A stretch of 64,000 nt of DNA from Nitrospirota bacterium (GTDB taxonomy: Bacteria; Nitrospirota; Thermodesulfovibrionia; Thermodesulfovibrionales; UBA6898), in the NCBI GenBank assembly GCA_016235245.1, contig JACRLO010000004.1, positions 62,001-126,000 on the forward strand, read 5' to 3'. The notes beneath the pieces were generated by a model. That model saw only the letters and a list, made by a program, of their open reading frames with translations. It had not been told where the DNA came from and searched no databases. How positions within the stretch are numbered: the stretch's first letter is position 1; every line of letters begins with the position of its first letter. Made by a program: the position numbers and the translations under genes. Shown in pieces: positions 23,805 to 26,573 of the stretch.

Positions 23805-24158
23805 ATGCTTAATAGGCCTTATTCTAATCTTATATTGACTATAGTCTTCTTCTGTATGTTTCCATATGGAGTCGTATCAGTATTCGCAGAGCTAAGGTCT
23901 GGCGAAACACTCTTCAAAAAACACTGCGCCGTATGCCACCCCAACATCAGCAAACTGCAGAAGATAAGGAGTATTGTTGAGGGGATGAGGAATCCGCTGC
24001 CTTTCATGCCAGCGTTTGACAAGGCAAAGATACCCGATGAAGATGCAATTGAGATCGAAAACTACATTATAAAATCAACACCAAAGCAGGGCAATGGTCG
24101 ACAGGTCAAAAAGAGAGAAACCGAGACTGAGCGCAGTATCAACAACTATCGGGAGTAA
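23805..24158 (+). CDS. Monoheme c-type cytochrome, c553/c6-like
   Basis: A 117-residue secreted cytochrome: N-terminal hydrophobic signal (residues 8-28), heme-c motif Cys41-Ala-Val-Cys44-His45 and a Met in PFMPAFDKAKIPDEDA that is the likely sixth iron ligand. This is the class I small cytochrome layout. The C-terminus is a charged tail. No ribosome binding site is obvious. It is convergent with the minus-strand dehydrogenase/TrpD-like pair and not part of an obvious operon. Confidence 0.8.
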   Translation: MLNRPYSNLILTIVFFCMFPYGVVSVFAELRSGETLFKKHCAVCHPNISKLQKIRSIVEGMRNPLPFMPAFDKAKIPDEDAIEIENYIIKSTPKQGNGRQVKKRETETERSINNYRE

Positions 24159-24217: not shown

Positions 24218-25315
24218 TTAGAGAAGTGGATCGAGGAGTCTCTGCCCTGACATATTGCTTTTTGACTGAACTGAGACCCATTGATGTAATTTCTTAATAG
24301 CCATGCCGCTGTTTATTACATTGCGGGATATCTCAACTCCATTCTTAATGCTGTTGCACTTGCCAGCCACGTAAAGAATAGCGCCTGCGTTGAGGCAAAC
24401 AAAATTTATACATGCCTCATGCTCCTTGCCAGAGAGCACAGAAAGAAACTTGGCAGATTCCTCTTCGATGCTTCCAGAAAAAGCAATTTCAGAAAACTTG
24501 AAGGTCTTAATTCCCGCATGTTCTGGCATAAAAGAGTACTTCTGTACCTCAGTTTCGGTAAATTCATGGATAATGGTTTCACCACATGGTGAGATTTCGT
24601 CCATGCCCAGTCCTGAGTCACTATCGATACCATAAACAACCATGCCCCTTTGGTATCCGATTTTCTGCATAACCTCAACTACGCTCGGCATAACAGAATC
24701 AGAGTAAACGCCGCGTAGCCCAAGGGTTGGACGTGCAGGATTGGCAAGGGAGGCCGCAATGTTCAATGTAGAACCGAAGCGTATCTGGCTCAGAATCCTG
24801 CCAAGTGCTCCTGGATGGACATGGGAACTCATGCCATTAAACAGACCGATACCAACTTCTCTAATGCTGTCCTCCACCACACTGACTTCACACTCAACAT
24901 CAACCCCCAATGATTCAAGAATATCCACTGTGCCGCATTTTGACGTAAGTGCTCGTGCGCCATGCCTTGCCATCGGGATACCACATGCTGCTGCTACTAT
25001 GGCTGACGCGCTGCTGACATTAAACGTTTTTAGCCGGTCCATGCCGGTGCCGGAGTTGTCAAACAGCCCAGATGGAAGATCGCCTTTTGTATGAATTGTA
25101 TCAATCTCGTCAATGGCTTTCCATGCCGCCACTATCTCCTCTGCGGTTTCTCCTTTGGATGCAAGTGCAGCAAGAAAGGCCCCCTGTTGAAGGTCAGGCT
25201 GGCGATTCTCAAGCACATGCTTGAACATTTGGTATGTTTCCTTTCCCGTTAAATTTTCCCCTTGTATGAGGCGTTGAATCCCCCGCCCAAAATCAGCAAT
25301 TGCAGTTGCATCCAT
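24218..25315 (-). CDS. Anthranilate phosphoribosyltransferase-like (TrpD family) protein in a cobalamin-controlled operon
   Basis: A 365-residue glycosyltransferase family 3 protein. The family motifs are present: PRPP loop DNSGTGMDRLKTFNVSSASA, the nucleotide/aromatic site RHGARALTSKCGTVDILESLG, NPARPTLGLRGVYS and the acidic GLGMDEISPCGE. TrpD moves phosphoribose from PRPP onto anthranilate; here no other trp gene is near. The gene follows a dehydrogenase gene by 20 bases, and that operon starts with a cobalamin riboswitch. The true acceptor is unknown and may be another aromatic amine or a cobamide-related base. That is a guess. Confidence 0.85.
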   Translation of the reverse strand: MDATAIADFGRGIQRLIQGENLTGKETYQMFKHVLENRQPDLQQGAFLAALASKGETAEEIVAAWKAIDEIDTIHTKGDLPSGLFDNSGTGMDRLKTFNVSSASAIVAAACGIPMARHGARALTSKCGTVDILESLGVDVECEVSVVEDSIREVGIGLFNGMSSHVHPGALGRILSQIRFGSTLNIAASLANPARPTLGLRGVYSDSVMPSVVEVMQKIGYQRGMVVYGIDSDSGLGMDEISPCGETIIHEFTETEVQKYSFMPEHAGIKTFKFSEIAFSGSIEEESAKFLSVLSGKEHEACINFVCLNAGAILYVAGKCNSIKNGVEISRNVINSGMAIKKLHQWVSVQSKSNMSGQRLLDPLL

Positions 25316-25335
25316 ATTTTGCCTCCTGATTAAAA

Positions 25336-26301
25336 TTATGGGTAAAGCAGTATTTTCATGCCTTCGCGGCGTTCTACGAGACCAAGCGCTGCATCAAGCT
25401 CGGCAAGCGGCATTTTGTGAGAGATCATATCCTTTACATCCAATTGCCTTGTACCTATCATTTTCAGGGCCTGCACACCGTGGCGGTAACTACACCCATA
25501 CGCCCCAATAATGGTCTGTTCAAGGTAATGCAGGTGATTGAAATCAACTGAAAGAGATGAATCATCTTTTGCAAGTCCCGAAAAAACAACCAGCCTGCCA
25601 CGAGGACCAAGCCCTCCCATTGCCTCCATGTAGGCATTCTTGTCTCCAACGGCAACAAATGCCGCATCAAGATCTTTATCGTGCAGTTTTTCAGACCCCT
25701 CAGCAATAAGTCTTCTTCTCGGGTCTTTCTCTATGACTACGGATTTTGCTCCAAGGGCCTTTACTGCACGGCTTAAAAGAGTGCCAGCAGGCCCAGCTCC
25801 CCATATGCCGACCTTCTCACCTTCTTTTACTGCTGCGAGCTCTATAGCATTCAGGCAACACGAGAGAGGCTCTGTAAGGATGGCTTCCTCATCCAATATC
25901 TCAGAGGGAACTGGGGTCAGACTCTGAATAGGTGCAACCACGTATTCGGCGAATCCCCCGTCGCGATGAAAACCCATGATCCTCATATCCGCACAAAGAT
26001 TACCCGCTCCGCTTTCGCATGTCTTGCATCTTCCGCAGCTTATCCCGGGGTAGATATATACCCTTTGCCCGATATTGATCTCTGAAGTTTTACTGCCAAG
26101 GGCCTCCACCGTGCCTATGACCTCTTCTCCCGGCACCCTGGGAAGGGTCAAATCCCTATGCCCAACCCTAATAATTTTAAGGTCTGTCCTGCAAAGCCCG
26201 GTTACGGTCACCTTGACAAGTGCCTCGTCACTTGCTGGAGTGCGAACAGCAATATCTCCATAGACAAACGAACCAATCTCTTCAATCCATACTGCCTTCA
26301 C
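25336..26301 (-). CDS. Zinc-type medium-chain dehydrogenase, first gene after a cobalamin riboswitch
   Basis: A 321-residue alcohol/sorbitol/threonine dehydrogenase-like protein, slightly short for the family. Seen: catalytic Cys37 in GLCRTD, four structural-zinc Cys in GISCGRCKTCESGAGNLC, Rossmann loop GIWGAGPAGTLL. The usual GHE motif that gives the catalytic-zinc His reads GEE here, so the zinc site may differ. GTG start at 26301 with GGAGGTGA just upstream. Substrate unknown. It is followed by the TrpD-like gene, and the riboswitch implies a link to cobamide supply. Confidence 0.88.
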   Translation of the reverse strand: MKAVWIEEIGSFVYGDIAVRTPASDEALVKVTVTGLCRTDLKIIRVGHRDLTLPRVPGEEVIGTVEALGSKTSEINIGQRVYIYPGISCGRCKTCESGAGNLCADMRIMGFHRDGGFAEYVVAPIQSLTPVPSEILDEEAILTEPLSCCLNAIELAAVKEGEKVGIWGAGPAGTLLSRAVKALGAKSVVIEKDPRRRLIAEGSEKLHDKDLDAAFVAVGDKNAYMEAMGGLGPRGRLVVFSGLAKDDSSLSVDFNHLHYLEQTIIGAYGCSYRHGVQALKMIGTRQLDVKDMISHKMPLAELDAALGLVERREGMKILLYP

Positions 26302-26314
26302 CTGCTCACCTCCA

Positions 26315-26361
26315 AATAAAAAAGAGGCCCAATGGAAGATAAGCTTCCATCGGACCTCTTT
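26315..26361 (-). terminator. Intrinsic terminator of the cobalamin riboswitch
   Basis: On the minus strand AAAGAGG(T)CC and ATGGAAG pair with CTTCCAT and GG(G)CCTCTTT, followed by TTTTTATTT. It ends just before the ribosome binding site of the dehydrogenase gene. Confidence 0.85.
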
Positions 26362-26391
26362 ACCATCAAGTGCCGTATTTACATCCGTCTC

Positions 26392-26532
26392 AACACGTCT
26401 TCTGGCTTATGGGTCAACCACCATGGGCTGCGCCTTCCCGGCAGTGTGATTTCTGCCAGTGGCCTAGATGCAGCCGGTGTCACCAATTACAGCGGCGGGA
26501 CCACCACGGATTCTAACCGTGTTCCGTATTGT
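26392..26532 (-). ncRNA. Cobalamin riboswitch (AdoCbl type)
   Basis: Read on the minus strand: ACACGGTTAGAATCCGTG, then CCCGCCGCTGTAA, GGTGAC, GCCACTGGCAGAAATCACACTGCCGGGAAGGC as the B12 box region, and a closing AAGCCAGAAGAC. These blocks in this order define the cobalamin aptamer. A perfect sigma70 promoter lies just upstream and an intrinsic terminator just downstream. By the usual logic, cobalamin should switch off the dehydrogenase and TrpD-like genes. Confidence 0.95.
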
Positions 26533-26544
26533 TAAGACAGTAGA

Positions 26545-26573
26545 ATTATATGGTCAGCATGAATCAATGTCAA
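26545..26573 (-). promoter_or_regulatory. Perfect-consensus sigma70 promoter of the cobalamin riboswitch
   Basis: On the minus strand TTGACA (26568-26573), a 17-base spacer and TATAAT (26545-26550). All twelve consensus bases match. The start site falls about 7 bases later, just before the aptamer. Confidence 0.9.

Follow-up and report, generated by a model that had tools for sequence, protein, structure and literature searches.

The 64,000-nucleotide stretch of Nitrospirota DNA analysed here (the window) raises the question of why a cobalamin riboswitch should precede a gene pair unusual for it: a zinc-type dehydrogenase (ADH) and a TrpD-like phosphoribosyltransferase (TrpDL). On the minus strand the order is promoter, riboswitch, terminator, ADH, TrpDL, and all the parts named in an earlier sequence-only reading of the locus (promoter, B12 aptamer, terminator and two genes 20 bases apart) were confirmed. 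The promoter is of the sigma-70 type (TTGACA-17-TATAAT; 26545-26573, minus strand), matches the consensus at 12 of 12 positions and recurs in the related locus L004. An intrinsic terminator (26321-26361, minus strand), built from an 18-pair stem with 8 G-C pairs followed by a T run, is the probable expression platform, and is retained in L004 and L103 among the relatives compared. GGAGG ribosome-binding sites begin at 26313 for ADH and at 25326 for TrpDL, the two genes being separated by 20 nt.

Membership of the riboswitch family was judged by a covariance score above the curated gathering cut-off. The Rfam cobalamin check proposed with the sequence-only reading returned a full-length RF00174 match in the window at 26573-26375 (minus strand), with 85.1 bits against a cut-off of 31.5 (E=1.5e-19). 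The element differs from the family in the genes it controls and in its P1 helix: we rejected the Rfam placement of P1, as its 5' strand overlaps the promoter and so would be missing from the transcript. An alternative P1 of 9 bp, in which GUCUUAACA (26538-26530) pairs with UGUUGAGAC (26395-26387), begins at the expected start site and is fully paired in each of the three relatives compared, with L004 and L103 carrying compensatory changes on both strands. On account of this position and conservation, the transcript probably begins with P1, and the aptamer as probably transcribed, combining the RF00174 match with the refolded P1, runs from 26538 to 26387 (minus strand). The window also holds a c-di-GMP-I-GGC (GEMM) riboswitch (21687-21612, minus strand; 59.5 bits against a cut-off of 59), with a cysteine-rich 109-aa ORF downstream of it (21461-21132, minus strand, GTG start), and a small cytochrome-c-like protein of 117 aa (23805-24158, plus strand; PF13442, E=2.4e-6) convergent to the ADH-TrpDL pair.

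TrpDL (24218-25315, minus strand; 365 aa; PF00591 and PF02885) has the TrpD fold and passes the TrpD family cut-off, scoring 266 against 199 for TIGR01245. It nonetheless belongs to a separate clade. A profile made from seven homologues splits TrpDL from true TrpD without overlap: TrpDL sequences mostly score above 430 bits, apart from a divergent sequence and a partial one (292 and 322), whereas true TrpD reaches at most 235 bits. In the tree the two groups lie on opposite sides of one branch (SH-aLRT 100), two divergent TrpDL sequences standing on long branches. We compared the active sites of 40 TrpDL and 27 true TrpD sequences: GTGxD and the metal-binding D-E are invariant in 40/40 TrpDL, and N-x-S and [K/R]-H-G are kept almost without exception. 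In the AnPRT of M. tuberculosis, R193 and N138 hold the anthranilate carboxylate (PMC9835598; also PMC5537072); these positions are Arg and Asn in 27/27 true TrpD, whereas in TrpDL the Asn is replaced by Ala in 38 of 40 sequences and the Arg by Gln in 31 of 40. The acceptor helix differs throughout and carries a new Arg, R173, that is invariant. Structure prediction gives the AnPRT fold (pLDDT 85.5; the best 50 PDB matches are all AnPRT). As the PRPP and Mg residues are retained and the anthranilate residues replaced, we read TrpDL as having kept PRPP and changed its acceptor, which may still be charged. We also discarded the idea that TrpDL is the sole trpD of its genome, since a separate true TrpD is encoded on contig C20 (G000:C20). 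The partners of TrpDL are likewise distinct, being ADH and CobT rather than trp genes.

ADH (25336-26301, minus strand; 321 aa, GTG start; PF08240, E=1.5e-27) resembles the zinc-dependent medium-chain dehydrogenases of threonine, sorbitol and other substrates in its Rossmann fold, structural-zinc cysteines (C89, C92, C95 and C103) and catalytic C37 and E144, all six residues being present in 37/37 aligned ADHs. It departs from them in scoring far under all NCBIfam equivalog cut-offs (for tdh, for example, 129 where 458 is required), in carrying its own signature, GHRDLxLPR, nearly invariant across the 37 sequences, and in having a sub-clade altered at the catalytic zinc as well as a fusion to CobT in four genomes. 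Its structure prediction is poor (pLDDT 67); the acidic residue that follows the second Rossmann strand points to NAD as the probable cofactor. At the third catalytic-zinc position, 29 of the 37 ADHs have His, within GHE, and eight have Glu, among them the window protein with GEE (E59-E60, that is H59E). The TrpDLs of the GEE loci make one clade (support 99), so that H59E is most simply a single lineage-specific change. GEE is thus present as the sequence-only reading had said, but to take it as a hint of altered chemistry overstates a feature confined to one sub-clade, and for the same reason we do not regard it as a family-defining trait.

How far does the pairing extend? TrpDL was found in 41 genomes, many of them fragmentary MAGs and, in the archaeal set, including near relatives: 14/395 Desulfobacterota, 23/345 Halobacteriota, 2/246 Nitrospirota, 1/241 genomes in the phylum of a Kiritimatiellae MAG, and one more from the window's own family. 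So scattered a distribution suggests horizontal transfer. Relatives known by name are Nitrospirae MYbin3, the Kiritimatiellae MAG, MAGs of Methanophagales and other archaea, and Desulforhopalus. A search for the same pairing elsewhere, another check attached to the sequence-only reading, bore it out: in 39 of the 39 loci that could be checked on the contig, ADH either adjoins TrpDL, in varying order, or sits fused to CobT in the next gene. Pairwise distances of TrpDL and ADH correlate (Mantel r=0.82; highest value among 2000 permutations, 0.29).

The riboswitch, too, recurs with the pair. A cobalamin riboswitch lies just upstream in 17/17 testable bacterial loci from three phyla, 16 of them above the gathering score and the remaining one, L091, falling short of it with 28.3 bits (E=2e-4); none was found in the two archaeal loci scanned. 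Ten archaeal TrpDL loci, including L106 (7198-8118, minus strand), have a divergent gene encoding a ribbon-helix-helix domain fused to an AIR-synthase-like domain, which may be a regulator that replaces the riboswitch. Restriction of TrpDL homologues to trp operons, which the sequence-only reading had named as the pattern that would tell against it, does not hold: only L095 stands beside a trp operon, and there the riboswitch intervenes between trpA and ADH, with cobT and cobS following the pair.

The link to cobamides, which is well supported, also runs through CobT. This nucleotide-loop enzyme is adjacent or fused to the pair in 20/41 loci (13 with CobT adjacent, three with an adjacent archaeal CobT, and four with ADH-CobT fusions). 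The fusions, single polypeptides of about 700 aa, occur in four Desulfobacterota (L008, L091, L100 and L094), the domains being confirmed for L008 and the L094 case resting on frame length. The CobT adjoining the pair in three archaea is of the archaeal type (TIGR00303); archaeal and bacterial CobT are only 18% identical (M. jannaschii versus Salmonella; PMC9561151). Neither chance nor general B12 regulation would easily account for two distinct CobT types recurring as partners together with the fusion. Further cobamide genes surround some pairs: cobU/cobO/cobS/cobD/cbiB occur in the larger clusters of L096 and L098, cbiJ and a tetrapyrrole methylase lie upstream in L092, and cobalt-transport-like genes are present in L006.

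The sequence-only reading had proposed checking whether carriers of the pair lack CobT or BluB. A lack of CobT was not supported: CobT exceeds its cut-off in 36/41 carriers, and of the other five, three have TIGR00303 beside the pair and one has a weak PF02277 match. A motif search found the catalytic LGEGTGA kept in the CobTs checked, with few exceptions. As CobT is retained with its motif, and is even fused to ADH, we rejected the pair as a CobT replacement and read it as assisting CobT instead. At L106, CobT gene fragments lie just before TrpDL (G705:C129:16216-16626) while an intact CobT is encoded elsewhere in the genome, which suggests that the local copy is decaying. In the archaeal loci L009 (3481-4914, plus strand) and L117, a radical-SAM/SPASM gene stands directly upstream of CobT and the pair; we set this neighbour aside as a clue to the base, since it is too rare.

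The two known routes to benzimidazole lower ligands were also surveyed. BluB and the BzaF/BzaAB synthases resemble the pair in standing beside CobT, and in the source genome BzaF is likewise under a cobalamin riboswitch, but domain and family profile searches gave no homology of ADH or TrpDL to the BluB or ThiC/BzaF families. BluB was absent above its cut-off from all 41 carriers; BzaF-like proteins occur in 10/41, the source genome included (assigned by at least 55% identity to the source genome's BzaF and by separation from ThiC in a quick tree, from which row G154a, in a wrong reading frame, was left out). Within Halobacteriota, BzaF-like proteins occur in 4/23 TrpDL carriers versus about 126/322 other genomes, a weak difference in which kinship is ignored (Fisher p=0.045). 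One Desulfobacterota genome (G154; contigs C1, C3 and C5) encodes cobT four times: next to a bzaF-like gene, in fusion with ADH beside TrpDL, and at two further places. Such separate CobTs are what would be expected if each served its own base, as we infer for this genome.

Three cobalamin riboswitches occur in the source assembly (3.25 Mb in 41 contigs, 96% complete); gene names in these units were given by inspection, except for cobT. In the second riboswitch unit a ThiC-like candidate for BzaF comes first, and behind it lie cobU, cobT, cobS, a cobC-like phosphatase, cobQ, cbiB, cobD and more; the third riboswitch precedes cbiM/cbiN-type cobalt-transport genes. ADH-TrpDL is thus one of three B12-controlled units, the remaining two having to do with cobamide synthesis or cobalt. 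This genome has one CobT, no BluB above cut-off, and a second ThiC family member that we take as the true ThiC.

Taking these lines together, we lean towards reading ADH-TrpDL, from its sequence and gene context, as a cobamide-regulated nucleotide-loop module that would work with CobT and supply a lower-ligand base. When adenosylcobamide is plentiful, the riboswitch would end transcription early; when it is scarce, ADH and TrpDL would be made. Judging from its residues, TrpDL would transfer phosphoribose from PRPP to an aromatic or heteroaromatic acceptor other than anthranilate, and ADH, judged likewise, would perform an NAD(H)-linked step. The resulting base would be activated by CobT with NaMN to give the alpha-ribotide; where ADH is fused to CobT, it is most simply read as the maker of CobT's immediate substrate. 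In the source genome, this base would add to the 5-hydroxybenzimidazole expected from BzaF. The lower-ligand idea of the sequence-only reading thus survives in its link to that branch of cobamide synthesis (CobT in 20/41 loci, a riboswitch in 17/17), but a lack of CobT in the carriers was not borne out. Some points count against the module: about half of the loci have no CobT beside the pair, and in ten carriers, the source genome among them, a BzaF-like enzyme already offers a known supply of base. Where BzaF is missing, adenine might simply serve instead, being a substrate of an archaeal CobT (PMC9561151).

Other explanations fit parts of these data. The pair could instead serve salvage or recycling around the CobT reaction, with TrpDL freeing a base by phosphorolysis or returning nicotinate, a by-product of CobT, to NaMN, and ADH acting on a sugar or base. 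The TrpD fold is common to nucleoside and AMP phosphorylases, to which TrpDL has weak matches, the tie to CobT would suit any supplier of a CobT substrate, NaMN included, and the ten carriers with BzaF-like enzymes already have a base. We nevertheless consider salvage unlikely: TrpDL matches TrpD far better, by score, than it matches any phosphorylase, its predicted fold is that of AnPRT, the loss of the carboxylate-binding Arg and Asn does not favour nicotinate (though a new invariant Arg is present), and ADH would be left with no obvious role.

Much less probable still is that the pair modifies the alpha-ribotide or runs parallel to CobT, for example with TrpDL making a beta-ribotide whose C1' ADH inverts via a 2'-keto intermediate. 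On chemical reasoning, the product of an inverting transferase that uses PRPP would be the beta anomer, so that a redox partner could be needed, and TrpDL retains its PRPP residues; yet such a route would be redundant, as CobT itself makes the alpha-ribotide and persists with its catalytic motif, even fused to ADH. We give scarcely more credence to a B12-independent substitute, or to an unrelated pair (a tryptophan-related paralogue, for instance) that came under B12 control by chance. Cobalamin riboswitches do also control B12-independent isozymes, and at L095 the pair lies directly downstream of a trp operon, but that pair is set off from trpA by its riboswitch and followed by cobT-cobS, the source genome has its separate true trpD, and adjacency or fusion to CobT recurs even with the unrelated archaeal CobT in archaea, where the two loci scanned had no riboswitch.

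Returning to the module that supplies CobT with a base, its chemistry can be sketched further only tentatively. It is conceivable, but in our estimate improbable, that the pair forms a third lower-ligand route independent of BluB and BzaF/BzaAB, in which PRPP would serve to phosphoribosylate an aromatic amine and oxidation of the adduct would yield a base of the benzimidazole or purine type, the ribose providing a ring carbon. That ribose should donate the carbon, as in an oxygen-free analogue of BluB chemistry, is speculation. The product might be a base such as 5-methylbenzimidazole, which was reportedly found in some sulfate reducers by Kräutler et al. in 1988 (cited in PMC4303638); we know of no gene for its biosynthesis.

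Our search of the open-access literature turned up no account of a TrpD-like/dehydrogenase pair that takes part in making cobamides; for TrpD combined with cobamides the sole hit was a population study of Chlorobium, in which trpD appears as a gene abbreviation. Control by a riboswitch and linkage to CobT are known forms of organisation, and as far as tested it is the two enzymes in such a role that are new. The structure of the lower ligand helps decide which organisms can use a cobamide, yet 42% of the bacteria predicted to produce cobamides lack all known genes for benzimidazole synthesis or phenolic attachment (PMC6461909). The ADH-TrpDL module is a concrete candidate for part of this gap, found in anaerobes where cobamides matter, namely sulfate reducers, Methanophagales and other archaea, and Nitrospirota, and its two defined proteins, together with the natural ADH-CobT fusion, narrow the search for the substrate.
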